A DNA stretch of 64,000 bases, taken from NCBI RefSeq assembly GCF_026967795.1, contig NZ_JAPVBH010000003.1, positions 434,001 through 498,000 on the forward strand. The letters run 5' to 3'. Below, piece by piece: positions 44,536-64,000 of this stretch. This DNA comes from Modestobacter sp. VKM Ac-2986. GTDB lineage: Bacteria; Actinomycetota; Actinomycetes; Mycobacteriales; Geodermatophilaceae. The position numbers were made by a program, and so were the translations under genes. Below the pieces are notes generated by a model, which was not told the DNA's origin, made no database searches, and saw nothing but the letters and a program-made list of their open reading frames with translations. Every line of letters starts with the position of its first letter. Position 1 is the stretch's first letter.

Positions 44536-44952
44536 TCAGCTGTCGGCAGCCGCCGGCTCGGCCTCGCTGGCGACGCGGTGGCAGGCGGCGCAGGTGCCGA
44601 AGATCTCCAGGGTGTGCTTCACGTCGACGAAGCCGTGCTCGCCGGCGACCCGGTCGGCCCAGCGCTCGACCGTGGGCCCCTCGACCTCGACGGTGCGCCC
44701 ACAGCTGCGGCAGACCAGGTGGTGGTGGTGGGTGGTGCTGCACCGGCGGTAGATGGCCTCGCCGTTGTCGGTGCGGATCGAGTCCAGCTCGCCGTCGTCG
44801 ACGAGGGCCTGCACGGCCCGGTAGACGGTGGACAGCCCGATGCTGTCGCCGGCGGCGCGCATCCGGGCGTGCACCTCCTGGGCGCTGTGGAAGCCGTCGA
44901 GCTGGTCGAAGACGGCGACCACGGCCGAGCGCTGGCGGGTGTTGCGGATCAT
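44536..44952 (-). CDS. zur: Fur-family regulator, Zur type
   Basis: A 138-residue Fur family repressor. The helix-turn-helix GLSTVYRAVQALVDDGELDSI (residues 39-59), the HHHH stretch at 75-78 and the two structural CxxC pairs C81/C84 and C121/C124 are present. Its position in an operon with ArsR and the znuABC importer on the same strand identifies the metal as zinc with fair confidence. In zinc-replete cells it should repress the importers of this region. It overlaps arsR by four bases (ATGA). Confidence 0.9.
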   Translation of the reverse strand: MIRNTRQRSAVVAVFDQLDGFHSAQEVHARMRAAGDSIGLSTVYRAVQALVDDGELDSIRTDNGEAIYRRCSTTHHHHLVCRSCGRTVEVEGPTVERWADRVAGEHGFVDVKHTLEIFGTCAACHRVASEAEPAAADS

Positions 44953-45332
44953 CGCGGCATCGTCTCATCCGCGGTGGCACACGTCTCACCGGCCGGCGCG
45001 GCGGCGCCGTGCGACACGTGGGCCAGGGCGTCGCGGACGATGTGGGCCACGTGCGGGTCGACGAGCTCGTAGTGCACCTCGCGGTGCCGCCGCTCTCCGA
45101 CCACCAGGCTCGCGCCGCGCAGCACGCGCAGGTGCTGGGACACCAGCGGCTGGGGTGCGCCGAGGGCGTCGACCAGCTGGTGCACGCACCGGCTGCCGTG
45201 CTGGTCGAGCAGGGCGATGATCGCCAGCCGCATCGGGGCGGCCAGCGCGGTCAGGAGCGCACTGGCGGCCTGGACGGTCTCCGGGTCGGCGGCCGGTGCG
45301 GCGACCCGCTCCCTGCTCGGCGCTGCGGTCAT
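44949..45332 (-). CDS. ArsR/SmtB-type zinc sensor
   Basis: A 127-residue winged-helix repressor. The recognition helix is AQPLVSQHLRVLRGASLV, the alpha-5 metal site is the full DxHx10HxxH pattern D92, H94, H105, H108, matching SmtB/CzrA zinc sensors and mycobacterial SmtB (Rv2358). In mycobacteria smtB is co-transcribed with zur and represses it when zinc is low. Here too the order is smtB then zur with a 4-base overlap. The gene starts four bases after the znuB stop. Confidence 0.9.
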   Translation of the reverse strand: MTAAPSRERVAAPAADPETVQAASALLTALAAPMRLAIIALLDQHGSRCVHQLVDALGAPQPLVSQHLRVLRGASLVVGERRHREVHYELVDPHVAHIVRDALAHVSHGAAAPAGETCATADETMPR

Positions 45333-49939: not shown

Positions 49940-50254
49940 ATGGCCGAGTCGAAGACCAACCGCACCGCCACCGCCGGCCGACTGCTGCGCAAGGCCGCCG
50001 GGACGGTGGCCACCGGTGTCGTCGGCGTCGCCGTCGTCCGGGCCGCCGAGCGCGGCGAGGGCGGCAGCCTGCCCCGCCGGATCGCCGTCACCGCGACCCG
50101 GCTGGGCATCCTGGGCACTCGCCGCGCCGAGACCGCCGTGGAGCGCGCCCGGCTGGCCGCCGGCGACGTCCGGGCGCAGGCCTACGCCGACCTGGGCGAG
50201 CAGGCTCCCCCGCCGGCCGACCGGTCCACCGGCGGCCACGACCACAGCCACTGA
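49940..50254 (+). CDS. DUF1490 protein, PacL1-like metallochaperone
   Basis: A 104-residue protein of the DUF1490 family, like Rv3269 (PacL1) of M. tuberculosis. It has one N-terminal membrane segment (AAGTVATGVVGVAVVRAA, about residues 19-36), a charged helical middle, and a C-terminal metal-binding tail HDHSH at 100-104. PacL proteins bind zinc at this tail and stabilise CtpC-type P-ATPases in membrane platforms. The gene is directly followed by ctpC, with the ATG of ctpC overlapping its stop. The start has GAGGAG upstream. Confidence 0.88.
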   Translation: MAESKTNRTATAGRLLRKAAGTVATGVVGVAVVRAAERGEGGSLPRRIAVTATRLGILGTRRAETAVERARLAAGDVRAQAYADLGEQAPPPADRSTGGHDHSH

Positions 50255-52500
50255 TGACCACCGCGACCAGCACGCCGCCCACGGTCGTCGCCGACGCCGG
50301 CGGCCGGGTGCGGATCGCCGTCCCCGCGCTGACCGGCTCGCCGGCGCGCGCGGTGCAGGTCGAGGACGCCCTGGACGGCGTCCCGGGCGTGCTGGCCGCG
50401 CAGGCCTTCCCGGGCACCGGGCAGGTCGTGGTGTGGCTGACCCCGGACGCCGACCGGGCCGACGTGCTCGCCGTCGTGGCGGGCGCCGGTGACCTGTCCG
50501 CCGACGCGGTGGTCGCCCGCCGGCCCCGGTCGGCCGACGTCGCCAACACCGAGCTGCTGCGGATCGGGATCGGTGGGGCCGCGCTGGCCCTGCTCGGCAT
50601 CCGGCGCTACGGCTTCGGCCGTCCGCCGGTGCTGTCGGGCCGCAGCCGGCTGGTGGCCAGCGCGCTGACGCTGTTCACCGGCTACCCCTTCGTCAAGGGC
50701 GCCTTCGGTGCGCTCGCCGGCAAGCGCACCGCAGGCACTGACGCACTGGTCACCGCCGCGACCTTCGCCTCCCTGCTCCTGCGGGAGAACGTCGTCGCCC
50801 TCACCGTGTTGTGGCTGCTCAACATCGGCGAGTGGCTGCAGACGCTGACGCTGCGCCGCACCCGCCGGGCGATCTCGGCCCTGCTGGCCGGCACCGAGAC
50901 GACCGCCTGGGTGCTCGTGCCCGGCGAGGGTGGTCAGCCCGACGTCGAGCGCCAGGTCGACCTGGCCCAGCTGCGGGTCGGTGACCTCGTGGTCGTGCAC
51001 GACCAGGCGACCATCGCCGTCGACGGCGTGGTCGTCGACGGCACCGGCGTCGTCGACCAGGCGGCGATCACCGGGGAGCCGCTGCCGGCGTCGGTGGCCG
51101 CCGGCGACGAGGTGCACGCCGGTTCGGTGAACCTGCGCGGCCGGCTGGTGGTGCGCGCCTCGGCCACCGGCTCGGACACCGCGATCGGCCGGATCATCGC
51201 CCGGGTCGAGCAGGCTCAGGACGACCGGGCGCCGATCCAGACCGTCGGGGAGAACTTCTCCGCCCGCTTCGTGCCGGCCTCCTTCGCCCTGGCCACGCTG
51301 ACCTGGCTGGTCACCCGGGACGTCCGCCGCGCGATGACGATGCTGCTGGTGGCCTGCCCGTGCGCGGTCGGGCTGTCCACGCCGACCGCGGTGAGCGCGG
51401 CCATCGGCAACGGCGCCTCCCGTGGCGTGCTGATCAAGGGCGGCGCGCACCTGGAGGCGGCCGGGCGGATCGACGCCGTGGTGTTCGACAAGACCGGCAC
51501 GCTCACCCTCGGCCGGCCCGTGGTCACCAACATCGTCTCCTTCTCGCAACGCTGGACGCCGGAGGAGGTGCTCGGCTACGCGGCGAGCTCGGAGGTGCAC
51601 TCCCGGCACCCGCTGGCCCAGGCGGTGATCCGCTCGACCGAGGAGCGGCACGTCTTCATCCCGCCGCACGAGGAGTGCGAGGTGCTGCTGGGTCTGGGCA
51701 TGCGGACCCAGGCCGACGGCCGGGTGCTGCTGCTGGGCAGCGAGGCGCTGATGGCCGGCGAGGGCGTCGAGGTCGGCCCCGAGGCGGCGAACTGGCTGAC
51801 CACGCTGCGGGCGGCCACCGAGACGCCGCTGCTGCTGGCCGTCGACGGTGAGCTCGTCGGGCTGGTCAGCCTGCGCGACGAGATCCGCCCGGAGTCCCGC
51901 GAGGTGCTCGACGCGCTGCGGGCCACCGGCGTGCAGCGCATCGTGATGCTGACCGGTGACCACGCGGTCACCGCCGCGGCGGTGGCCGCCGAGCTCGGCA
52001 TCACCGAGTGGCAGGCCGAGGTGCTGCCCGAGCACAAGCAGGACGCCGTCACCGCCCTGCAGGCGCAGGGGCACACCGTGGCGATGGTCGGCGACGGCAC
52101 GAACGACGCCCCCGCCCTGGCCGCCGCCGACATCGGCATCGCGATGGGGGTCTCCGGCACCGACGTGGCCGTGGAGACCGCGGACGTGGCACTGGTCGGT
52201 GACGACCTGCGGCACCTGCTGGACCTGCGTGAGCTGGGTGGCCGGACGCTGCAGATCGTCCGGCAGAACTACGGCATGTCGATCGCGGTCAACGGCATCG
52301 GGCTGCTGGTGGCCGGTGGCGGGGCGCTGTCGCCGGTGCTGGCGGCGGTGCTGCACAACGCCTCCTCGGTGGCGGTGGCCGGCAACTCCGCCCGGCTCGT
52401 GCGCTACCGCGGGGTGCGCCGGGACGACCACGCGATCGAGCCCGACGGCCTGATCCCGACGCCCACCGGCCCGGACACGGTCGCCGCCGGGCAGTCCTGA
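50254..52500 (+). CDS. ctpC: P1B-type metal-transporting ATPase, CtpC-like
   Basis: A 748-residue P-type ATPase. The transmembrane metal site is CPC at 368-370 (ACPCAVGLSTPTAV), the phosphorylated Asp is D412 in DKTGTLT, the HP motif is SRHPLAQA near 452 and the hinge is GDGTNDAPAL. A short N-terminal domain (residues 15-90) lacks a CxxC. This is the CtpC pattern, which in mycobacteria exports zinc (or manganese) together with PacL1. The gene overlaps pacL1 and ends before a 19-bp terminator. It protects against metal excess, in contrast to the importers around it. Confidence 0.93.
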   Translation: MTTATSTPPTVVADAGGRVRIAVPALTGSPARAVQVEDALDGVPGVLAAQAFPGTGQVVVWLTPDADRADVLAVVAGAGDLSADAVVARRPRSADVANTELLRIGIGGAALALLGIRRYGFGRPPVLSGRSRLVASALTLFTGYPFVKGAFGALAGKRTAGTDALVTAATFASLLLRENVVALTVLWLLNIGEWLQTLTLRRTRRAISALLAGTETTAWVLVPGEGGQPDVERQVDLAQLRVGDLVVVHDQATIAVDGVVVDGTGVVDQAAITGEPLPASVAAGDEVHAGSVNLRGRLVVRASATGSDTAIGRIIARVEQAQDDRAPIQTVGENFSARFVPASFALATLTWLVTRDVRRAMTMLLVACPCAVGLSTPTAVSAAIGNGASRGVLIKGGAHLEAAGRIDAVVFDKTGTLTLGRPVVTNIVSFSQRWTPEEVLGYAASSEVHSRHPLAQAVIRSTEERHVFIPPHEECEVLLGLGMRTQADGRVLLLGSEALMAGEGVEVGPEAANWLTTLRAATETPLLLAVDGELVGLVSLRDEIRPESREVLDALRATGVQRIVMLTGDHAVTAAAVAAELGITEWQAEVLPEHKQDAVTALQAQGHTVAMVGDGTNDAPALAAADIGIAMGVSGTDVAVETADVALVGDDLRHLLDLRELGGRTLQIVRQNYGMSIAVNGIGLLVAGGGALSPVLAAVLHNASSVAVAGNSARLVRYRGVRRDDHAIEPDGLIPTPTGPDTVAAGQS

Positions 52501-52501
52501 C

Positions 52502-52551
52502 CTGAGGGTGGTCCGGCCCGTGGCACGCGCCGCGGGCCGGACCACCCTCAG
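52502..52551. terminator. Strong terminator after ctpC
   Basis: Perfect 19-base arms (52502-52520 and 52533-52551) with a 12-base loop, one base after the ctpC stop. It also covers the stop of the opposing DUF1905 gene, so it may serve both strands. Confidence 0.85.
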
Positions 52552-52832
52552 CTGGTCCGCTCCTGCAGGTGGACGGCGACCTGCTCACCTGCGGCGGACT
52601 TGCCGATGGCCGTGCACAGCGCGGCCCGCAGCGGCAACCAGTGCGGGCCGCTGCCCGAGGGCATCAGCGTGGCCTGGAAGGGGTGCCCGTCCAGGGTCCC
52701 GGACACCTTGACCGCGCGACGGGTGCCGAGCAGCTCCGCGGAACCGTCGAGCTCCAGGTAGGTGGGGAAGGCGCCGTCCTTGCGGATCGGGGCGGTGTTG
52801 GTGGCGTCCAGCGGTCGTGCGGGCGTCGTCAA
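52548..52832 (-). CDS. DUF1905 protein
   Basis: A 94-residue protein whose core FPTYLELDGSAELLGTRRAVKVSGTLDGHPFQATLMPSGSGPHWLPLRAALCTAIGKSAAGEQVAVHL is the DUF1905 domain, a small beta-barrel. No function is known. It is convergent with ctpC across the terminator and lies on the same strand as the ArsR gene that follows, 92 bases away. Confidence 0.82.
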   Translation of the reverse strand: MTTPARPLDATNTAPIRKDGAFPTYLELDGSAELLGTRRAVKVSGTLDGHPFQATLMPSGSGPHWLPLRAALCTAIGKSAAGEQVAVHLQERTS

Positions 52833-52924
52833 CGGTCTCTCCTGCGGGTCCGGCGGACGGGCGGTCCCGGTGAGGACCCTGCGGCCGCCGGGAACTCATC
52901 GGTCCCCCGGCACCGCGGCCCGGG

Positions 52925-53269
52925 TCAGCCGGCGGGGACCTCGGCGGCGGACGCGGGGTGGCCGGCGTGCGACAGCGCCTGGCGCAGCAGGGCGCCGACG
53001 TGCGGGTCGGCCAGCTGGTAGTAGACGAACGTGCCCTCGCGCCGGTTGGTGACCAGGCCGGCCAGCCGCAGCTTGGACAGGTGCTGGCTGACCGCGGTCG
53101 GTGAGGTGCCGGCCAGGTCGGCGAGGCAGGCCACCGACGTCTCGCCCTGCATCAGGGCCCACAGCACGTTGATCCGGGTGGGGTCGGCCAGCATGCGCAG
53201 CGCCTCGGCGGCGTGCCGCACGGTGTCACCGGCCGGCATCTCGAAACCGTCGATGCCGGAGTGGACCAT
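52925..53269 (-). CDS. ArsR/SmtB-type metal sensor next to a P1B-4 ATPase
   Basis: A 114-residue winged-helix repressor. The recognition helix is SPTAVSQHLSKLRLAGLV, and the alpha-5 site is again DxHx10HxxH: D88, H90, H101, H104. Likely metals are zinc, cobalt or nickel. It is divergent from the P1B-4 ATPase gene 63 bases away, with a perfect palindrome in between. Excess metal would release it and switch the ATPase on. Confidence 0.9.
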   Translation of the reverse strand: MVHSGIDGFEMPAGDTVRHAAEALRMLADPTRINVLWALMQGETSVACLADLAGTSPTAVSQHLSKLRLAGLVTNRREGTFVYYQLADPHVGALLRQALSHAGHPASAAEVPAG

Positions 53270-53301
53270 GCCGCCAGCGTAGGACACCCGTCGAGTTGCA
53301 C

Positions 53302-53321
53302 ACCTGCGCATCTGCGCAGGT
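53302..53321. promoter_or_regulatory. ArsR-type operator, perfect inverted repeat
   Basis: ACCTGCGCATCTGCGCAGGT: 9-base arms, two-base centre TC. It lies 11 bases upstream of the P1B-4 ATPase GTG and 32 bases upstream of the divergent ArsR start. Candidate -35 TTGCAC (53296-53301) and -10 TACGTT (53321-53326) flank it, so a bound repressor would sit between them. The predicted transcript start coincides with the GTG, suggesting a leaderless mRNA. Confidence 0.75.
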
Positions 53322-53332
53322 ACGTTCACCCG

Positions 53333-55258
53333 GTGACCGCCCTCGACACCCGTCCGGCCGCTGCGGAGACCCCCGCGCGGCGCTCGCTGCCCGGCTGGAC
53401 CGCCGTGCCGGAGGTGCGCTGGGCGGCCGCCGCCCTCGCGTTCTTCCTCGCCGGCGGGCTGGTCCAGCTGCTGGGCGGCCCGACGCCGCTGGCCTGGGCG
53501 CTGTACCTGGGCTGCTACGCCGCCGGCGGGTGGGAGCCGGCCTGGGCCGGCCTCACCGCGCTGCGCGCCCGCACGCTGGACGTCGACGTGCTGATGGTGC
53601 TGGCCGCGCTCGGCGCGCTGGCGCTCGGGCAGGTGTTCGACGGCGCCCTGCTGATCGTCATCTTCGCCACCTCCGGCGCCCTGGAGACCGTCGCCACCCG
53701 ACGCACCGCCGCGGCGGTCTCCGGGCTCACCGACCTGGCCCCCGAGCGGGCCACGGTGCTGCGCGGGGACACCGAGCAGCGCGTGCCGGTGGCCGAGCTG
53801 GCCGTGGGCGACCTGGTGCTCGTGCGGCCCGGCGAGCAGGTGCCGGCCGACGGCGAGGTGGTCGAGGGCCGCTCCGACGTCGGCCAGGCCTCCATCACCG
53901 GCGAGCCGCTGCCGGTGGACAAGGCGCCCGGCGACCCGGTCTGGGCCGGCACGGCCAACGGCACGGGCGTGCTCACCGTCCGGGTCGACCGCCCGGCGCA
54001 GGACACCGTGCTCGCCCGGATCGCCGCGCTGGTCGCCGACGCGACCGCGACCAAGGCCCGCACCCAGCTGTTCATCGAGAAGATCGAGCAGCGGTACTCG
54101 GTGGGGGTCGTCATCGCGACGATCGCGGTCTTCGTCGTGCCGCTGCTGGCCGGGGCGACCACGGAGAGCGCGCTGCTGCGGGCGATGACGTTCATGATCG
54201 TCGCCTCGCCGTGCGCGGTGGTGCTGTCCACCATGCCGCCGATGCTGTCGGCGATCGCCACGGCCGGCCGCAACGGCGTGCTGGTCCGCTCCGCGGTCGT
54301 GCTCGAGCAGCTGGGCGGGGTCACGGCCGTCGCGCTGGACAAGACCGGCACGCTCACCGACGGCCGCCCCGCCGTGGTCGCCGTCCGGCCGCTGCCCGGG
54401 GTGGACGGCGACGAGCTGCTCGCGCTGGCCGCGGCGGCGGAGGTCCCCAGCGAGCACCCGGTGGGCCGCGCGATCGTGGCCGCCGCCCGGGCGCCGCTGG
54501 CCCCGGCCGAGGACTTCCGGGCGGCGGTCGGGTCCGGGGTGACCGCCACCGTCGCCGGCCGCACGGTGACCGTCGCCGCCCCCGGCCCCCAGGACGGCGC
54601 GGTCGCCGACCTCGTCGAGGCCGAGCAGGCCGCCGGGCGCACGGCCGTGGTCGTCACCGTCGACGGCCGACCGGCCGGGGTGCTCGCACTGGCCGACCGG
54701 GTGCGCCCCGAGGCCGCCGCCGCGGTCGCGTCCCTGCGCGGGCTCACCACCACCGAGCCGCTGCTGCTCACCGGCGACAACCCCGGCGCGGCCCGGGCGC
54801 TGGCCACCGAGGCGGGGATGCGGGAGGTGCGGGCGGGCCTGCTGCCGCAGGACAAGGTCGACGCGGTGCGGGAGCTGCAGCGGGCCGGCCACCGGGTCGC
54901 TGTCGTGGGCGACGGGGTGAACGACGCCCCGGCGCTGGCCACCGCCGACGTCGGGGTGGCCATGGGCGGCATCGGCTCGGACCTGGCGCTGCGCAGCGCC
55001 GACGTGGTCGTCGTCCGCGACGACCTGGCCGCGCTGCCGGCCGTGGTCGCGCTGGCCCGGCGGGCGCACCGACTGGTGGTGCAGAACCTGGTGATCGCCG
55101 GGACGGTGATCACCGCGCTGGTGCTCTGGGACCTGCTGGGCACCCTGCCGCTGCCGCTGGGGGTGGCCGGTCACGAGGGGTCGACCATCGTCGTCGCCCT
55201 CAACGGCCTGCGGCTGCTGCGCCGGTCGGCCTGGCCGGCGCCCACCGGTCGGGCCTGA
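53333..55258 (+). CDS. P1B-4-type metal-exporting ATPase (SPC, HEGST)
   Basis: A 641-residue P-type ATPase. The helix-6 motif is SPC at 292-294 instead of CPC, D336 is phosphorylated (DKTGTLT), GDGVNDAPAL marks the hinge and HEGST at 614-618 lies in the last membrane segment. SPC plus HEG(S/G)T defines the P1B-4 group (CoaT, CtpD, CzcP) that exports cobalt, nickel, iron or zinc. There is no N-terminal CxxC metal domain. GTG start at 53333 has no ribosome-binding site. It is divergent from its ArsR sensor and 47 bases from znuA2. Confidence 0.93.
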   Translation: MTALDTRPAAAETPARRSLPGWTAVPEVRWAAAALAFFLAGGLVQLLGGPTPLAWALYLGCYAAGGWEPAWAGLTALRARTLDVDVLMVLAALGALALGQVFDGALLIVIFATSGALETVATRRTAAAVSGLTDLAPERATVLRGDTEQRVPVAELAVGDLVLVRPGEQVPADGEVVEGRSDVGQASITGEPLPVDKAPGDPVWAGTANGTGVLTVRVDRPAQDTVLARIAALVADATATKARTQLFIEKIEQRYSVGVVIATIAVFVVPLLAGATTESALLRAMTFMIVASPCAVVLSTMPPMLSAIATAGRNGVLVRSAVVLEQLGGVTAVALDKTGTLTDGRPAVVAVRPLPGVDGDELLALAAAAEVPSEHPVGRAIVAAARAPLAPAEDFRAAVGSGVTATVAGRTVTVAAPGPQDGAVADLVEAEQAAGRTAVVVTVDGRPAGVLALADRVRPEAAAAVASLRGLTTTEPLLLTGDNPGAARALATEAGMREVRAGLLPQDKVDAVRELQRAGHRVAVVGDGVNDAPALATADVGVAMGGIGSDLALRSADVVVVRDDLAALPAVVALARRAHRLVVQNLVIAGTVITALVLWDLLGTLPLPLGVAGHEGSTIVVALNGLRLLRRSAWPAPTGRA

Positions 55259-55270
55259 CCCTCTGCCGTT

Positions 55271-55299
55271 TTGACAATGATTGTCGTTTCACCGACGAT
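55271..55299 (+). promoter_or_regulatory. Promoter with overlapping Zur-like palindrome before the second znu operon
   Basis: TGACAATGATTGTCG at 55272-55286 includes the perfect 13-base palindrome GACAAT-G-ATTGTC and fits the Zur pattern. A consensus -35 TTGACA (55271-55276) overlaps it, and a -10-like GACGAT (55294-55299) follows after 17 bases. The ATG at 55306 is where transcription would begin, so the mRNA may be leaderless. It is the clearest Zur site of the window. Confidence 0.72.
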
Positions 55300-55305
55300 G
55301 TCGCC

Positions 55306-56288
55306 ATGCACCCGTCCCGCCCCTCCCGGACCCGCACCGGCGTCCCCACCCTCCTCGCCCTGACCTGCGCCGGGACCGTCCTCCTCGCCGGGTGCTCGGC
55401 CGCCGACGGCGCCGAGCCGGCCGCGGCGGGCGGGGACGGCCTCGCCGTGGTGACGTCCTTCTACCCCCTGGAGTGGCTCACCGGGCAGGTGGCCGGCGAC
55501 CTCGCCACCGTCTCCTCGCTCACCCCGCCCGGCGCCGAACCGCACGACCACGAGCTCACCCCGGCCGACGTCGCCGCGGTCTCCGAGGCCGACCTCGTCG
55601 TGTACCTCGACGCACTGCAGCCCGCGGTCGACGCCGCGGTGGAGCAGCAGGGCGGTGACCGCGTGTTCGACGCCGCCGACTCCGCCGACCTCGACCTGGT
55701 CTTCGCAGCCGGCGAGGACCACGAGCACGCCGAGGACGAGGAGCACGTCGAGGACGAACACGCCGAGGAGGGCGCGGTCACCGACCCGCACTTCTGGCAC
55801 GACCCGATGCGGATGGCCGCCGTCGGCGACGCCCTGGCGCAGCGGCTGGGCCGCGCCGACGAGGCGCACGCCGCCACCTACACCGCCAACGCCGCCGCGC
55901 TCCGCACGCAGCTGGAGGCGCTGGACGCCGAGTTCCGCACCGGCCTGGCCAGCTGCGCCAGCCGCGACCTGGTCACCAGCCACAGCGCCTTCGGCTACCT
56001 GGCCGAGGCCTTCGACCTGCACCAGGTCGGCATCAGCGGACTGGCGCCGGACGAGGAGCCCGCGCCGAGTGCGCTCACCGACGCCACCGCCTTCGTCCGC
56101 GAGCACGACGTGTCCACGATCTACTTCGAGACGCTGGTCAGCCCCGCCGTCGCCGAGACCGTCGCCCGGGAGACCGGCGCGCGGACCCGGCAGCTCGACC
56201 CGATCGAGGGCCTGACCGACGCCTCGGCCGGCGCGGACTACCTGGCGCTCATGCGCGCCAACCTGGCGAGCCTGCAGGAGGGGCAGCA

Positions 56289-56298
<10 letters not shown>
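55306..56298 (+). CDS. znuA: Zinc ABC transporter substrate-binding lipoprotein (second set)
   Basis: A 330-residue lipoprotein of the classical ZnuA kind. The lipobox is LLAGC (Cys30). Metal histidines lie in EPHDHELTP, DPHFWHDP and TSHSAFGYLAEAF, with the acidic ligand in YFETLVSP, so all canonical zinc ligands are present. A long His/Glu/Asp-rich loop (residues about 143-163, EDHEHAEDEEHVEDEHAEE) is typical of zinc-specific ZnuA. It captures zinc outside the membrane. It is the first gene of a znuA-znuC-znuB operon behind a Zur-like promoter and overlaps znuC by ten bases. Confidence 0.93.
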
Positions 56299-56998
<700 letters not shown>

Positions 56999-57005
<7 letters not shown>

Positions 57006-57886
57006 GCTACGGGTTCATGCAGCTGGCGCTGGTTGCTGCCGTGCTGGTCGGGCTGACCGCGCCCACCGTCGGCGTGCACCTCGTGCAGCGCCGCCTGTCG
57101 CTGATCGGTGACGGGCTCGGGCACGTGGCGCTGCTGGGCGTGGCCGTCGGCCTGGCGACCAGGACCGCCCCGGTGCTCACCGCGCTGCTGGCCACGGTGG
57201 GCGGCGCCGTGGTGCTCGAGCTGCTGCGCAGCCGCCGCTCGGCCGGCACCGACGTCGCCCTGGCGGTCATGTCCTACGGCGGCATCGCCGGCGGGGTCGT
57301 GGTCGTCAGCCGGGCCCCGGCGGGCACCCCGGCCAACCTGGACAGCTACCTGTTCGGGGCGCTGACCACCACCACGCGCGGGGACCTGGTCGTGTTCGCC
57401 GGCATGGCCGTCGTCGTGCTCGCGGTCACGATCGGGCTGAGCCGGCACCTGTTCGCCGTCGCGCTCGACGAGGAGCACGCCGCGGCCAGCGGGCTGCCGG
57501 TGCTGCGGCTGAACCTGCTGCTGGCCGTGGTCACCGCGGGCACGGTGACGCTGTCGATGCGGGTGCTGGGCCTGCTGCTGATCAGCGGCCTGATGGTGCT
57601 GCCCGCCGGCTGTGCCCAGCTCGTGGCGTGGAGCTCCCGCTCCAGCCTGGCCGTCGCCGTGCTCGTCGGGGTCGGCGCCTCGGTCGGCGGGACGGTGCTC
57701 TCCTTCCACGCCGACACCCCCTCCGGCGCGACGATCGTGCTGGTGACGGTCGGCGTCTTCGTGCTGCTGGCCGCCGGGCGGGCCACGTCCCGCGGGCCGT
57801 CCCGGTGGCGCAGGCCCGACGCGGCCGTGGTGCCGGGACCGGCCGGTGCGGAGCCGGTGCGGGCAGGGCTCGGCGTCCCGCGCTGA
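56999..57886 (+). CDS. znuB: Zinc ABC transporter permease (second set)
   Basis: A 295-residue ABC-3 permease with about nine hydrophobic segments. Conserved parts are LVQRRLSLIGDGLGHVALLGVAVGL near the N terminus, a GTDVALAVMSYGGIAGGVVV segment and the ATPase-contact loop DEEHAAASGLPV. It completes the second ZnuABC importer. It is convergent with the ABC permease gene of the Cnt-like operon, 18 bases away. Confidence 0.9.
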
Positions 57887-57904: not shown

Positions 57905-59653
57905 TCAGCGGCCGGTGCGCACCAGGCCGGCCGCGACCCCCAGCAGCACCAGCCCGGCCGCCGGCACGCCGACCAGCCAGGGCGCGCGCTCCAGGTAGCC
58001 CACCCCGTCGGCGAGGCTGCGGCCCCACTCCGGGGACTCCGGTCCGGCACCGAGCCCGAGGAAGGACAACCCGGCCAGCGCGAGCGCGCTGTGCGGCACC
58101 CGGAGCAGCGCGTGCCGGGTCACCGGCGGCAGCACGGCCGGCAGCACGTGCGCGCGCACCAGCCGCCGGCCCGAGGCTCCGTAGGTGCGGGCGGCCAGGT
58201 GGAACCCCGAGGCCCGCACCTCCGCGGCCAGGGCGCGGGTGTGCACGGCCAGCGGGATCCAGGCCACCGCGCTCACCGCCAGCACCGCCGCGGACAGGCT
58301 CGGGCCGACGACGGCGGTCACCGCGATGGCGACCAGCACCGCCGGCAGCGCGTTGAGCACGTCGGCCAGCCCGGCGCGGCCCCGGCCCAGCAGCCCCACG
58401 GCCACGCCGACCACCAGCGCGACGGCGCTGACGCCCAGCGCCAGCCCCACCGACAGCAGCGCCCCGGCGCCGAACCGGGCGAGCACGTCCCGGCCCAGGG
58501 CGTCGGCGCCCAGCGGGTGCGCCCGGCCCGGCGCGGCCAGCCGCCCGCCCAGCTCCTGCGCGGCCGGGTCGCGCAGGAGGCCCACCAGGACGACGGCCAG
58601 CAGCAGCCCGGCCAGCCCCGCGGCCCAGCGGCCGGTGCGCCGTCCCGGCGGCGGCAGCTCCGGGCTCAGCCCACCCGCCGACGCGGCCGGGCCCAGCAGC
58701 CACCGGGAGGCCAGCACGCCGGCACCCCCGACGGCGAGACCGAGGACCACCAGGAGCGCCACCCCGGCCTGCACCACCGGGAGGTCCTGGGCCAGCGCCG
58801 CGTCCAGCGCCGTGCCGCCCAGCCCGGGGAGGTCGAAGACGGCCTCGACGACGGCGCCGGCCCCCAGCGTGCCGACCAGCAGCAGGAGCACCTGCGGCAC
58901 GACCGCGGTCAGTGCCCGCCGGCCCAGCGCGGTCATCACCGTCCGCCGCGGCACCCCGGCGGCCCGCCAGGTGCGCACCCACGCCTCCCCGGCTGCGTCG
59001 GCCACCGCCCCGCCCAGCACCCGGGCGAGCAGCCCGCCCGCGGGCAGGGCCAGCGCGAGCACCGGCAGCACCAGGTGCTCGGGGCCGGTGAACCCCGAGG
59101 TGGGCAGCAGCCCCCAGCCGACCGCGACGACGGCGACCCCGACGACGGCGACCACGAACTCCGGCAGCGCGGCGAGCGCCGCGGCGACCACCCCGGCGGC
59201 CCCGGCTCCCGGCCGGCCCCCGGTGGCGGCGCGGGCGAGCGCGGGCAGGCAGAGGGCGACGGCCAGCAGCAGCGCCACCACCGCGGCTGTGGTGGCCAGC
59301 GTGAGCGACACCCCGAGCGCGGGCGGGACGACCTCGGCCACCGGCTGCCCGCTCACCCACGAGGTGCCCAGGTCGCCCCGGACCACGCGGCCCAGCCAGC
59401 CGAGGGTGCCCTGCACCGGGTCGGCCGGCAGGTCCAGCCGCTCGCGCACCGCGGCCAGCGTTGCCGGGTCGACGTCCCGCTCGGCCTCGCGCGCCCGCAG
59501 GACGGTGCGCGCCGGATCGGCGCCGGACAGCCAGGGCAGCGCCCCGACCAGCAGCGCGGTGCCGGCGACCGCGGCGACGGCGGTGACCAACGGCCGCACG
59601 GCCGGCCCCAGCGCGGCAGCTCCGGTCCTCAGCGCCGCCGCCGGGCGGGTCAC
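57905..59653 (-). CDS. Fused DppB-DppC-type ABC permease
   Basis: A 582-residue membrane protein that joins two permeases normally made separately. Residues 1-325 are DppB/NikB-like (VRERLDLPADPVQGTLGWLGRVVRGDLGTSW, then GAGAVVEAVFDLPGLGGTAL), and residues about 345-582 are DppC/NikC-like (AHPLGADALGRDVLARFGAGALLSVGLALGVSA, then FHLAARTYGASGRRLVRAHVLPAVLPP). Each half has its EAA-type loop. The linker is proline-rich. It should form the whole translocation pore for a nickel/peptide/metallophore importer with the two ATPases upstream. It starts at GTG overlapping the SBP stop. Confidence 0.9.
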   Translation of the reverse strand: MTRPAAALRTGAAALGPAVRPLVTAVAAVAGTALLVGALPWLSGADPARTVLRAREAERDVDPATLAAVRERLDLPADPVQGTLGWLGRVVRGDLGTSWVSGQPVAEVVPPALGVSLTLATTAAVVALLLAVALCLPALARAATGGRPGAGAAGVVAAALAALPEFVVAVVGVAVVAVGWGLLPTSGFTGPEHLVLPVLALALPAGGLLARVLGGAVADAAGEAWVRTWRAAGVPRRTVMTALGRRALTAVVPQVLLLLVGTLGAGAVVEAVFDLPGLGGTALDAALAQDLPVVQAGVALLVVLGLAVGGAGVLASRWLLGPAASAGGLSPELPPPGRRTGRWAAGLAGLLLAVVLVGLLRDPAAQELGGRLAAPGRAHPLGADALGRDVLARFGAGALLSVGLALGVSAVALVVGVAVGLLGRGRAGLADVLNALPAVLVAIAVTAVVGPSLSAAVLAVSAVAWIPLAVHTRALAAEVRASGFHLAARTYGASGRRLVRAHVLPAVLPPVTRHALLRVPHSALALAGLSFLGLGAGPESPEWGRSLADGVGYLERAPWLVGVPAAGLVLLGVAAGLVRTGR

Positions 59654-61140
59654 CCGCCGACCGCGGTCTCGGCGGTGACCAGCCGGCGCTCGAACGGGTC
59701 GGTGGCCAGGCCGGTCACCGACGGCGCGTGCCCGGTCCGGCTGCGCTCGTGCAGCACCGGCACGAACGCGGCGGTGCCCAGCACGGTGGCCTCGACGGCC
59801 GCGGCCCGCTCCCGGCGCTGGGCCGGGTCGGTCAGCGCGCCGGCGGCGGCGACCGCGTCGTCGACGGCGGGGTCGCAGAGCCGGGCCAGGTTGTAGGTGC
59901 CGGCGCAGGTGAGGTCGGTGGCCAGGTAGCCGACCGGGTCGCCGGTGTCGCCCAGGTACAGCCGGCTGCCGAGCACGGCGTCGTAGCTGCCGTCGAGCAG
60001 GCCGGGCTCCAGCGCGGCGTACTCCGCGACCACCACCTCGACGGTGAACCCGGCCGCGCGCAGCTGCCCGGCCAGCACCGCGGCGGCCTCGGGCAGCTCC
60101 GGACGGTCGGAGTAGGTGGCCAGCCGGACGACCGCCCCCGCCGGGTCGGCCGGGGCCGGCAGCCGCGGCGCGGGCCGGGCCGCCCCGGCCAGGGTGGCGT
60201 CGTCGAAGAAGCCCGCGGCCCGGCTCGCCTCGCCCTCGTAGACGCCGTCGACGACCGGCCCGGGGTCGACCGCCCGGGCCGCCGCGGCGCGCACACCGGG
60301 GTCGGCGAACGGGCCGTCCGCGGTGTCCAGGAACAGCCCGACCAGCCGCGGCAGCGGGGTGGACAGCACCTCGAGGCCGGTCAGCGAGGGCAGCTGGGCG
60401 ATGGGCAGGTTGACCGCCACGTCGAGCTCGCCGGCGCGCAGGCCCGCGGTGCGCGCCCCGGGGTCGGCGGTGAACCGGACGTCGACGCCGTCCAGTGCCG
60501 GCAGCCCGCCCCAGTACCGGTCGTTGGCCTGCAGGGTGGCCGCGCTGTCCCCCTGCAGCCCGGTGATCGTGAAGGGCCCGGTCGCGGTGCCCACCGGGTC
60601 GGGCGCGGCCGGGTCGGCGTAGGCCGCCGGGGACAGCACCACCAGGCCCGGCGAGGCCAGCCGCTGCACCAGCAGCGGGTCGGCCGCAGCGGTCCGCACC
60701 TCCACGGTGTCGGCGTCCACGGCCCGGGCGGTGAGCCCCACGCCGCTGATCGCCCGCGGGGCGGGGCTGGCCGCGGCGGCCGCCTCCAGCACGCCCACCA
60801 CCGCGGCGGCGTCCAGCGGGGCGCCGTCCTGGAACACGACGCCCGGCCGCAGCTCGAGCAGGGCGGTGCGGTCGTCGGGACGGCTCCAGGACCCCGCCAG
60901 CTGCGGCACCGGGGCACCGGCGTCGTCCAGGCCCACGAGGGTCTCGGTCACCCCCATCCGGGAGGTGAGCACCGCGTCGTCGGAGAACGGCGACAGGGCG
61001 GCCGCGGGCGGGAAGGCCAGCGCCAGCCGCAGCCGCGCGCCGCCGTCCTCCGCTGCCTCGGGCGAGGCGGTGAAGCAGCCGGCGAGCAGCGCGGGCAGCA
61101 CGAGCACCGCGCCGAGGACGCGGGCAGGAGGGCGGGTCAT
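59650..61140 (-). CDS. Nickel/oligopeptide-type substrate-binding lipoprotein
   Basis: A 496-residue SBP_bac_5 lipoprotein. The lipobox is LLAGC with Cys22. The family fold follows: GVTETLVGLDDAGAPVPQLAGSWSRPDDRTALLELRPGVVFQDGAPLDAAAVVGVLE and, near the end, GSRLYLGDTGDPVGYLATDLTC. Related proteins bind dipeptides, nickel chelates or opine metallophores (NikA, CntA). It lies between the MFS exporter gene upstream and the fused permease gene downstream, so it provides substrate capture outside the membrane. No known ligand residues can be assigned from sequence alone. Confidence 0.88.
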   Translation of the reverse strand: MTRPPARVLGAVLVLPALLAGCFTASPEAAEDGGARLRLALAFPPAAALSPFSDDAVLTSRMGVTETLVGLDDAGAPVPQLAGSWSRPDDRTALLELRPGVVFQDGAPLDAAAVVGVLEAAAAASPAPRAISGVGLTARAVDADTVEVRTAAADPLLVQRLASPGLVVLSPAAYADPAAPDPVGTATGPFTITGLQGDSAATLQANDRYWGGLPALDGVDVRFTADPGARTAGLRAGELDVAVNLPIAQLPSLTGLEVLSTPLPRLVGLFLDTADGPFADPGVRAAAARAVDPGPVVDGVYEGEASRAAGFFDDATLAGAARPAPRLPAPADPAGAVVRLATYSDRPELPEAAAVLAGQLRAAGFTVEVVVAEYAALEPGLLDGSYDAVLGSRLYLGDTGDPVGYLATDLTCAGTYNLARLCDPAVDDAVAAAGALTDPAQRRERAAAVEATVLGTAAFVPVLHERSRTGHAPSVTGLATDPFERRLVTAETAVGG

Positions 61141-61183
61141 CGTTCCTCTTCTCGGAGCGGGACGGGGTCTGCGCTGCCGCGGG

Positions 61184-62503
61184 TCACCGGCGGACCGGGT
61201 CCTCGGCGGGCACGGCCGGCGCGGCCGGCGCCGGGGCGGGGCGGCGGTCGATCCGGCGGGTGAGCACCCACAGGCCGACCGCCGACAGCGCCGGCAGCAG
61301 CGCCAACACCAGCCAGGGCAGCGCGGCGTCCGGTCGTGGCTCGGTGGCGCGGTCCAGCAGCACGCCGACGCCGGTGCTGCCGACCAGCACCGCCAGCCCG
61401 CCGGCGGAGGCCAGGAAGCCGAAGTGCGCGCCCAGCCGGCGCTCCCCGGCCAGCCGCGGCACCAGGTCCTGAGCGAGCGGGACGGCGACCATCTGGCCGG
61501 TGTAGAGCAGCAGCACCATGCCGACCGCCGGCGCCAGCGCCCACGGTCCGGGCAGCGGCGGCAGCGGCGCGCAGACGGCCACCAGCGCGAACGAGGCGGC
61601 CATCAGCGCGAAACCGAACGGCAGCGCCCGGCGCGGACCGGCCCGCCGGGCCAGCGTGGTGACCCGCAGCTGGAACAGCAGCACCGAGACGGCGGCCAGC
61701 ACGAACAGCCAGCCCAGCGCCCCCTGTCCCCCGGTGGCCCGGGTGAGTTCGACAGGCAGGGCGAGGTAGAGCTGGTTGTAGCTGAGCAGGTAGGTGCAGT
61801 AGCAGGCGGTGAAGGCCAGGAAGGTGCGGTTGCGCAGCACGTGCCCCCAGCCGGCCAGCACGCTCTCGCCCGGGCCGTCGCCGTCCTCGGTGCGCAGGTC
61901 GCGCGGGAGCCAGCGCAGGTGGGCCAGCAGGACGGCGCCGAAGACGGCGGCCGACACCCAGCAGGTCACCGCGAAGGGCACCCCGAGCAGCACCGCGCCC
62001 AGCACCGGCCCGGTGACCGAGCCCAGCTTGCTGGCGATCGCGTCGAGCCCGAAGACCTCCGCCCGGGTCACCACCCCGGCCGCCTCCAGCTGCCGCCCCT
62101 GCGCGGCCAGCGCGGACTCCACGGCCGGGGAGAACAGCGCCGCGGCGAAGCCCACGAGCACGGTGCCGGCGAGCACGCCGGGCAGCGAGGTGGTCAGCGC
62201 CAGGACGGCGAACCCGGCGATCCGCACGGTCACGCCCACCAGCACCACCGGCCGGACGCCGAACCGGTCGGCCAGCCCGCCGCCGAGGAAGAACAGCCCC
62301 TGCTGGCTGAACGTGCGCACGCCGAGCACGAGCCCGACGACGCCGCCGGCCAGCGCGAGGTCCTCGGTCAGGTGCACGGCCAGGAAGGGCACCACGAGGT
62401 AGAAGCCGATGTTGAACGCCAGCTGGGAGGCCAGCAGCAGCCGCGGCACCGGCGGCAGCCGCCGGAACAGCACGGCCGGCTGCCAGCCCCGGACCCCGCT
62501 CAC
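61184..62503 (-). CDS. MFS transporter within the ABC operon, exporter-like
   Basis: A 439-residue MFS protein with 12 predicted helices. The loop-2/3 motif reads GGLADRFGVRP, and the protein begins MSGVRGWQPAVLFRRLPPVPRLLLASQLAFNIGFYLVVPFLAVHL. It overlaps the upstream ATPase stop (GTGA), so it is made from the same mRNA as the nickel/peptide-type ABC importer. MFS exporters of this kind are unusual inside such operons except in metallophore systems, where CntE exports staphylopine. I infer export of a small chelator; drug efflux is an alternative. Confidence 0.85.
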   Translation of the reverse strand: MSGVRGWQPAVLFRRLPPVPRLLLASQLAFNIGFYLVVPFLAVHLTEDLALAGGVVGLVLGVRTFSQQGLFFLGGGLADRFGVRPVVLVGVTVRIAGFAVLALTTSLPGVLAGTVLVGFAAALFSPAVESALAAQGRQLEAAGVVTRAEVFGLDAIASKLGSVTGPVLGAVLLGVPFAVTCWVSAAVFGAVLLAHLRWLPRDLRTEDGDGPGESVLAGWGHVLRNRTFLAFTACYCTYLLSYNQLYLALPVELTRATGGQGALGWLFVLAAVSVLLFQLRVTTLARRAGPRRALPFGFALMAASFALVAVCAPLPPLPGPWALAPAVGMVLLLYTGQMVAVPLAQDLVPRLAGERRLGAHFGFLASAGGLAVLVGSTGVGVLLDRATEPRPDAALPWLVLALLPALSAVGLWVLTRRIDRRPAPAPAAPAVPAEDPVRR

Positions 62504-63264
62504 GACGCCACCAGCCGGGGTGCGGCCTCGACCAGCGCCCGCGCCGGTGCGCTCCGCGGCGCACCGAGCACCTGCCCGACCGGCCCGGACTCCACCACCC
62601 GGCCCGCGGCCAGCACCAGCACGTCGGTGCACAGCGCCGCGACCACGCCCAGGTCGTGCGAGACGACCAGCAGCGCTACCCCCTGGGCCTCCCCGACCTC
62701 CTGCAGCAGCTGCACGACCTGCAGCCGGACGGCGGCGTCCAGCGCGCTCACCGGCTCGTCGGCGACCAGCACCTCGGGCCGGGGGGCCAGGGCCCGGGCC
62801 AGCGCGATCCGCTGCCGCTGCCCACCGGAGAACTCGTGCGGCAACCGGCCCGCGGCGTCGGCGTCCAGCCCGACGGCGGCCAGCAGCTCGGCGACCCGGG
62901 CCGCGTGGTCGCCGGGGACGCGCAGGCAGTGCAGCGGCTCGGCGATCGCGCGGCCGACCCGCATCCGCGGGTCCAGCGACCGGCCGGGGTCCTGCGGCAC
63001 CAGCTGGACGGCCCGGCGGAACTCCCGCAGCGACCGGGGCCGGCCGGGCACGACCGGGCGCCCGCGGTGGGTGACCCGGCCGGCGTCCGGGCGCTCCAGC
63101 CCGAGCAGCAGACGGGTCAGCGTGGACTTGCCCGCGCCGGACTCCCCCACGACCGCGAGCCGCCGGCCCGCGCGCAGCTCCAGGCCGACGCCGTCCAGGG
63201 CCGGGGACGCGGTGCGCGGGTACCGGCGGGTGAGCCCGTGCGCGGCCAGCAGCACCTCGCTCAC
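62500..63264 (-). CDS. DppF/NikE-type ABC ATPase
   Basis: A 254-residue ATPase. Walker A is GESGAGKST, Q-loop VPQDPGRSLDPRMRVG (typical of the dipeptide/nickel family), signature FSGGQRQR, Walker B VLVADEP and switch His in VVSHDLG. It acts with the ATPase encoded just upstream and overlaps it (GTGA), and it is followed by the MFS gene with a 4-base overlap. Confidence 0.92.
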   Translation of the reverse strand: MSEVLLAAHGLTRRYPRTASPALDGVGLELRAGRRLAVVGESGAGKSTLTRLLLGLERPDAGRVTHRGRPVVPGRPRSLREFRRAVQLVPQDPGRSLDPRMRVGRAIAEPLHCLRVPGDHAARVAELLAAVGLDADAAGRLPHEFSGGQRQRIALARALAPRPEVLVADEPVSALDAAVRLQVVQLLQEVGEAQGVALLVVSHDLGVVAALCTDVLVLAAGRVVESGPVGQVLGAPRSAPARALVEAAPRLVAS

Positions 63265-64000
63265 CGGGCACCTCCCGGCAGCGGAGGGCTCAGTGCGACG
63301 GTGGCCTCGACCAGCGCGCGGACCACCGGCTGCGGGTCGGCGAGCACCTGCGGCAGCGGCCCGTCGGCGAGCAGCCGCCCCGCACCGAGCACCAGCAGCC
63401 GGTCGCAGGTGGTGGCCGCGGCGGCCAGGTCGTGGGTGACGAGCAGCAGCGCCGTGCCGCGGTCCCGGGTGGCCGCGCCCAGGGTGCCGAGCACGCCGGC
63501 CTGGACGGTGCCGTCGAGGGCGGACGTCGGCTCGTCGGCCAGCAGCAGCGCCGGGTCGCAGGCCAGCGCCATCGCCAGCGCGGCCCGCTGCCGCTGCCCG
63601 CCGGAGAGCTGGACGGGGAACCGGCGGGCCGTGCCGGCCGGCAGCCGCAGCTCGGTCAGCAGCGTCTCGACCCTGGCCGCCGCCGCACGCCGGCCGAGCC
63701 CGGCCCGGCGCAGCGGCGCCGCCACCTGCCGGCCCACCCGCACCTGCGGGTTGAGCGAGGTGCCCGGGTCCTGCGGCACCAGCGCGGACACCCGGCCGCG
63801 CAGCCCTGCGAGCACCCGCTCGGAGGCACCGACCAGCTCGGTGCCGCCCACCCGCACGCTGCCGGTCACGACGGCGCCGGGCGGCAGCAGCCCGAGCAGG
63901 GCCAGCCCGGTCAGGGTCTTCCCGGCCCCGGAGGCACCCACCAGCGCCACCCGCTCCCCGGCCGCCAGCGTGAAGCCGACCCCGCTCACCAGGGCCCGCC
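63261..64000 (-). CDS. DppD/NikD-type ABC ATPase (partial, runs out of window)
   Basis: The right window edge cuts this gene: the reading frame continues to the last base as ...ALVSGVGFTLAAGE, the usual sequence just before Walker A, so 20-30 N-terminal residues are missing. Visible are Walker A GASGAGKT, Q-loop VPQDPGTSLNPQVRVG, signature LSGGQRQR, Walker B LLLADEP and switch His in VTHDLA. It is the first visible gene of a five-gene minus-strand operon; what lies upstream is not shown. Confidence 0.9.
   Translation of the reverse strand, partial: RALVSGVGFTLAAGERVALVGASGAGKTLTGLALLGLLPPGAVVTGSVRVGGTELVGASERVLAGLRGRVSALVPQDPGTSLNPQVRVGRQVAAPLRRAGLGRRAAAARVETLLTELRLPAGTARRFPVQLSGGQRQRAALAMALACDPALLLADEPTSALDGTVQAGVLGTLGAATRDRGTALLLVTHDLAAAATTCDRLLVLGAGRLLADGPLPQVLADPQPVVRALVEATVALSPPLPGGAR

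Follow-up and report, generated by a model that had tools for sequence, protein, structure and literature searches.

Putative nickel- and zinc-responsive control of two divergent, paralogous nickel/peptide-type importer operons, one with an MFS transporter and a TauD-family dioxygenase, in Modestobacter sp. VKM Ac-2986

The stretch of DNA analysed here (the window, 64,000 nucleotides at contig positions 434001-498000 in the 4.19-Mb genome of Modestobacter sp. VKM Ac-2986) ends within a minus-strand operon, op1, which codes in order for a TauD-family protein, two ATPases, an MFS transporter, a substrate-binding protein (SBP1) and a fused permease; coordinates above 64000 continue the window numbering into the same contig. 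The original prediction described five minus-strand genes here, mostly overlapping by four bases, and the gene calls and Pfam matches agree: three of the four junctions among these genes overlap by four bases, while SBP1 and the MFS gene are separated by 43 bases. PERM1 (57905-59653) is a fused double permease with NikB/NikC-like halves, containing two BPD_transp_1 stretches that are matched best, below the cut-offs, by nickel permease models. SBP1 (59650-61140) is an SBP_bac_5 lipoprotein according to Pfam and profile models, with a lipobox (LLAGC) read by eye. Profile models further identify an MdtH-like MFS transporter, a probable exporter (61184-62503), a DppF/NikE-like ATPase (ATP1F, 62500-63264) and an OppD/NikD-like ATPase (ATP1D, 63261-64088), the start of which lies beyond the window end at 64000. 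Past this truncation, the first gene of op1 encodes a Fe(II)/2-oxoglutarate dioxygenase of the TauD family (Pfam; 64085-64894, minus strand), overlapping ATP1D by four bases, and is followed by a divergent paralogous importer operon, op2. The SBP_bac_5, BPD_transp_1 and ABC_tran parts all score above their Pfam cut-offs, placing the importer in the nickel/peptide family. An Rfam search of the 64-kb window returned no matches.

Op2, on the plus strand, comprises the ATPases ATP2D (65078-65881) and ATP2F (65878-66669), SBP2 (66702-68219) and the fused permease PERM2 (68224-69984). Downstream lie minus-strand genes for bS18, uS14 and bL28 and then a plus-strand COG0523/MRF gene. The latter (71315-72598) is interrupted by an in-frame stop into parts of 154 and 271 amino acids, which cover positions 1-151 and 155-400 of NF047431; in relatives (L090, L108 and L130) it is one long open reading frame. 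On its other side op1 converges on a plus-strand znuA-znuC-znuB set (55306-57886; profile models on ZnuA only) with a Zur box at 55272-55286, and the PERM1 stop and the znuB end are 18 bases apart, as predicted. A second znuACB set, read by eye, occupies about 45.4-48.05 kb. Between the two sets (50254-55258) are two heavy-metal P-type ATPase genes and an ArsR/SmtB regulator gene (52925-53269). The window also encodes Zur (44536-44952, minus strand; PDB match), adjoined by an ArsR-like gene read by eye (44949-45332). In gene content, the predicted combination of a metal-chelate-type importer and an MFS transporter beside zinc-starvation genes is thus confirmed.

The gap between the TauD and ATP2D genes measures 183 bases. 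A pattern scan located a Nur box within it, a palindrome at 64967-64983, which agrees with the published tTGCaa-N5-ttGCAA and is unique in the genome when one mismatch at most is allowed (reversed-pattern control, 0). A second palindrome, a Zur box (65079-65093; TGACAATGATTACCG), lies on the op2 start codon, scores 11 of 13 and resembles the boxes of znuA and of bL28/COG0523 (71280-71294). In dinucleotide shuffles of the same intergenic region, a Nur score of at least 11 (maximum 12) arose in 1/1000 and a Zur score of at least 11 (maximum 13) in 2/1000. Both site types are kept in all seven Modestobacter genomes with the gene pair, the Nur-type site with one to two mismatches, and that of the Zur type where op2 starts; identity across the region is confined to 70 of 243 aligned columns, in an alignment where the op2 site of the window genome is misaligned. 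Both boxes share one intergenic region, and each is assigned to its operon by position. On this assignment op1 would be switched on apparently in nickel shortage and op2 in zinc shortage. The proposal that op1 recovers zinc, or nickel/cobalt, holds as far as a metal importer is concerned; its zinc part fares less well, since by position op1 has the Nur box and the Zur box sits on the op2 start, and a zinc-only reading of op1 is weakened by the Nur box in its promoter.

Regulators to match both boxes are encoded in the genome, which contains four Fur-family proteins. The window Zur has 3mwm as its best PDB match (4.6e-49), with the FurB-labelled chain 2o03 at 1.5e-45. A Nur-like regulator matches 3eyy, presumably the Nur of Streptomyces coelicolor, at 1.6e-35, the next match being at 1.6e-12. 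Its gene stands directly before ygfZ, and in S. coelicolor nur also adjoins ygfZ, according to PMC4531530. The remaining two Fur-family genes adjoin catalase-type genes (by eye). Urease alpha is also encoded in the genome. With a Nur box at the op1 promoter, a Zur box at op2 and orthologues of both regulators in the genome, op1 is a candidate member of the Nur regulon and op2 of the Zur regulon.

The association of these boxes with importer operons extends beyond this locus. Counts at transporter, GNAT, zinc-gene and other starts refer to a 230-base window and those of SBP clades to a 360-base window, so that they are not to be pooled. Nur scores of at least 10/12 occur at 14 of 74 transporter operon starts and 7 of 11 GNAT starts, against 0 of 13 zinc-gene starts and 2 of 458 other starts, some sites being counted twice because divergent genes share them. 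Zur scores of at least 10/13 occur at 29/74 transporter, 9/13 zinc-gene and 42/469 other starts, and in 24 of the 25 operons of the SBP2 clade. A six-row clade of family f3 has Nur 11/12 throughout (6/6), each opposite a GNAT acetyltransferase gene. All four rows of a GNAT clade have Nur 9; two of these combine it with Zur 12 at the start of the operon, and in a third, L098, a Zur-type site lies between the GNAT and SBP genes. Another four-row clade has Zur scores of 12, 12, 10 and 8, with three members opposite a zinc-clade operon. The tie of the SBP1 clade itself to Nur is uneven. Nur scores are 11 in its own genus (3/3 rows), just 8-9 in another genus of the family (7/7), a level of at least 8 being reached also by 54/458 control starts, 10 in L112 and 8 in L087 and L088; L094 (Zur 11) and L090 (Zur 10) have a Zur site in place of the Nur site, and five operons without the MFS gene have neither. 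At TauD loci, the Nur score is 7 in L100 and 9 in L113, and the Zur score is 9; by eye, the remaining Pseudonocardia promoters of TauD loci show no clear Nur or Zur box. The MFS/SBP intergenic regions of the Pseudonocardia loci L143-L155 share conserved promoter blocks before a TTGAC-like hexamer, which by eye are not clear boxes of either type.

In a plain scan of 120 loci, 2.28 Mb in all, Nur scores of at least 11 were reached at 15 sites, and at none with the control pattern. Twelve are actinobacterial, eleven of them in promoters of such operons (L026 and L138 represent one genome twice). The twelfth, in genome G700 (L101:6169-12301), is separated by about 40 bases from the cobalamin riboswitch that follows it (RF00174, 94.3 bits); next come a metE-like gene (by eye) and genes for a distant SBP and two permeases, which may form a cobalt-chelate importer. 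The remaining three sites (11/12) lie in the gammaproteobacterial loci L166, L168 and L176, which were retrieved with the TauD alignment.

TauD is present in 7 of 23 Modestobacter genomes, and the same seven carry close SBP1 relatives (71-73%). An eighth, G102, has the SBP2 type only; besides op2 and znuACB it carries an isolated, divergent MFS gene preceded by a Nur-like site (10/12). Counting its paralogues, SBP2 has relatives in 49 of the 397 genomes of the order (E 1e-45). Selected SBP2-relative and MFS-match loci, in stretches of at most 20 kb, gave 63 loci for gene order and 67 SBPs for the tree. Gene calls outside the window genome came from a codon-usage script trained on this locus, and gene orders were re-read with tblastn because the caller failed at L095 and L116 and found nothing at L099. 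Importer and MFS operons lacking any TauD- or GNAT-type enzyme are common, the MFS gene occurs in 6 of the 25 zinc-clade (SBP2) operons as well, and no TauD gene accompanies the relatives of op1 in the other genera of the family. GNAT acetyltransferase genes stand beside importers in 12 loci (L079, L087, L089, L093, L097, L098, L109, L110, L112, L117, L118 and L119). No locus with both TauD and GNAT was seen among the 63 loci and the Pseudonocardia loci. TauD is therefore read as an accessory ligand step, since importer and MFS units exist without an enzyme and TauD and GNAT were not seen together. At L102:5391-10421, a gene for a fused chorismate-binding/aminotransferase class IV protein comes after those for a distant SBP and two permeases.

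In the TauD superfamily, the HxD...H facial triad and an arginine have catalytic and 2-oxoglutarate roles, respectively, and the corresponding H91-x-D93, H247 and R256 are invariant in seven aligned TauD sequences. The best scored relatives are TmpA and gamma-butyrobetaine dioxygenase of the same superfamily, the models of which have cut-offs of 400 and 414.75 and score it at 50 and 42.5 bits; TauD has 269 amino acids and these models 366 positions. Its predicted structure has a pLDDT of 43. The single protein as query matched 4 of 396 phylum genomes (1e-8), and an alignment query 15 of 397 order genomes (1e-25). Likewise, a first contig scan with the single protein gave no relative and the alignment scan gave 48, of which the neighbourhoods of 18 (L138-L155) were read and the weaker 30 left out. 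Thirteen Pseudonocardia records are relatives at 51-57%, and in 12 of them an MFS gene diverges from SBP-permease-permease-TauD; no ATPases were seen there. A distant relative in L022 lies beside a FecCD-type importer (Pfam). In the distant relatives L197-L200, an MFS-TauD pair adjoins a binding protein, a FecCD-type permease and, in three of the four, an ATPase (L197 by Pfam, the others by eye). A PALP enzyme is encoded no more than 8 kb away in three of these loci (L197 and L199 by Pfam, L200 by eye), and in L197 and L200 a DUF364 protein ('putative heavy-metal chelation') stands next to it. The MFS-TauD, FecB/FecCD-type and PALP genes of L197, L199 and L200 are a possible undescribed metallophore cluster. 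In L196, contrary to the importer pattern, it is a TctABC transporter that neighbours the TauD relative, and in L023 and L024 no such importer was seen by eye beside it; the codon-usage gene caller missed the TauD gene in L201 and L202. A role in isonitrile lipopeptides was also considered; no ScoE/Rv0097-like label, which we take to mark TauD enzymes of that type, appears among 12 PDB matches, some with only general names.

Among the known systems nearest to this arrangement is NikABCDE, repressed by Nur in S. coelicolor (review PMC7055735). The two share an SBP_bac_5 protein (with NikA as best fold for SBP1), two permease halves, two ATPases and a Nur box. Op1 differs in its fused permease, the MFS and TauD genes within the operon, the divergent Zur-type paralogue, and scores short of the curated Nik cut-offs (NikE, 216 against 332.55; nickel SBP, 158 and 169 against 600). 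The SBP1 structure is predicted with a pLDDT of 91, and its top folds are a Bacillus nickel-binding protein and the NikA of Staphylococcus aureus in complex with Ni-(L-His)(2-methyl-thiazolidine dicarboxylate); binders of glutathione and dipeptides come close behind, so that the fold does not settle the SBP1 ligand. Op2, with its Zur box, sits among genes typical of the actinobacterial Zur regulon (znuABC, COG0523 and alternative ribosomal proteins), whereas the actinobacterial rows seen of the Zur table in PMC6103462 hold no Opp/Nik-type importer. Searches of open-licence papers listed no title or abstract opening that describes this gene pair.

Taken together, the gene content and promoters suggest that op1 is probably a Nur-repressed nickel-chelate importer and op2 a Zur-repressed zinc-chelate importer, with the MFS transporter exporting the ligand and TauD oxidising it. 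The genes, the two boxes and their conservation, both regulators and urease are seen in the sequence; the metal of each importer, the ligand, the direction of MFS transport and the TauD reaction we infer. Nickel-loaded Nur would repress op1, which would import a nickel complex, for example for urease, while zinc-loaded Zur would repress op2, which would import a zinc complex within the Zur regulon. The MFS transporter may send free or altered ligand out. Oxidation by TauD would most likely either weaken metal binding within the cell or tailor a small exported chelator.

Several other explanations bear on the same genes. The original prediction was of a staphylopine-type (Cnt) opine metallophore system with its biosynthesis genes beyond position 64000; as a rival explanation, such a system would have them somewhere else in the genome. 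An Opp-type importer and an MFS transporter in a metal-starvation setting are shared with CntABCDF-CntE. The comparison with Cnt models did not bear this out: SBP1 and SBP2 score 57 and 46 bits against the CntA cut-off of 800, three of the four ATPases score 135-146 bits against CntD/CntF cut-offs of 380-385 (about 135-138 for those of op1), and the fourth has no CntD/CntF model among the 25 matches listed. For the MFS transporter MdtH is the best model, and no CntE model is among its 10 matches. The proposed comparison of SBP1 with CntA by structure prediction likewise returned NikA folds as best, with no CntA-labelled entry among the best 50. CntM (PF10100) has no match in the genome, an absence that is not proven as the control genomes were silent too. 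A TauD gene is found instead of opine-synthesis genes, none of which was recognised nearby by eye, where the reading covered ORF starts in the 22 kb beyond the window, or, from sequence starts read by eye and neighbour recurrence, at about 60 related loci. On the model scores and the fold ranking a Cnt system is highly improbable, and nickel control appears to suit op1 better. Coincidental metal boxes on an ordinary importer of peptides or amino acids, with the MFS transporter serving drug efflux, would accord with the many ligands bound by SBP_bac_5 proteins and with the five SBP1-clade operons that lack either box, but is very improbable given the box counts and conservation and the neighbouring znu, zur, metal P-type ATPase and extra ribosomal protein genes.

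Control of the Nur-like box by another regulator, or transport by op1 of another metal such as cobalt, is brought to mind by the distant member of G700 behind its riboswitch, Nur-like site and metE-like gene; with a Nur-like regulator in ygfZ synteny and a urease in the same genome, it seems improbable here. There is somewhat more to be said for TauD as the enzyme that makes the chelator, by a single oxidation of a common metabolite such as an amino acid to a nickelophore, which the MFS transporter would export and the importers recover as complexes; this can be combined with the assignment of nickel to op1 and zinc to op2. The joint operon of TauD and MFS, the MFS-TauD pairs of L197-L200 beside FecCD-type importer genes with PALP nearby in three and DUF364 adjoining in two, and the comparable position of the GNAT acetyltransferase in other relatives all fit this explanation. 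The frequency of enzyme-free importer and MFS operons counts against it, as does the result for DUF364, which none of the 23 Modestobacter genomes has above the cut-off (G101 gave a single weak match), and we regard it as doubtful.

The importers of op1 and op2 are of the known nickel/peptide base type; what stands out is the pairing of Nur and Zur boxes on sister importers. Beyond the probable roles of op1 in nickel-chelate and op2 in zinc-chelate import, it is conceivable, though unlikely, that one small chelator, made or tailored in a single Fe(II)/2-oxoglutarate (or, in relatives, GNAT) step and exported by the MFS transporter, returns as its nickel complex through op1 and as its zinc complex through op2. 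If true, this would constitute a split-metal metallophore system with an exchangeable one-enzyme tailoring slot across actinobacteria. The paralogous nickel- and zinc-type importers at two Fur-family boxes in a 183-base region make the partition of metals testable, and an uncharacterised TauD subfamily and a GNAT subfamily are tied to the uptake of metal chelates in two or more families of actinobacteria. The link to TauD and GNAT may thus offer a lead to small metallophores, or to ligand processing, unlike the known biosynthesis clusters.
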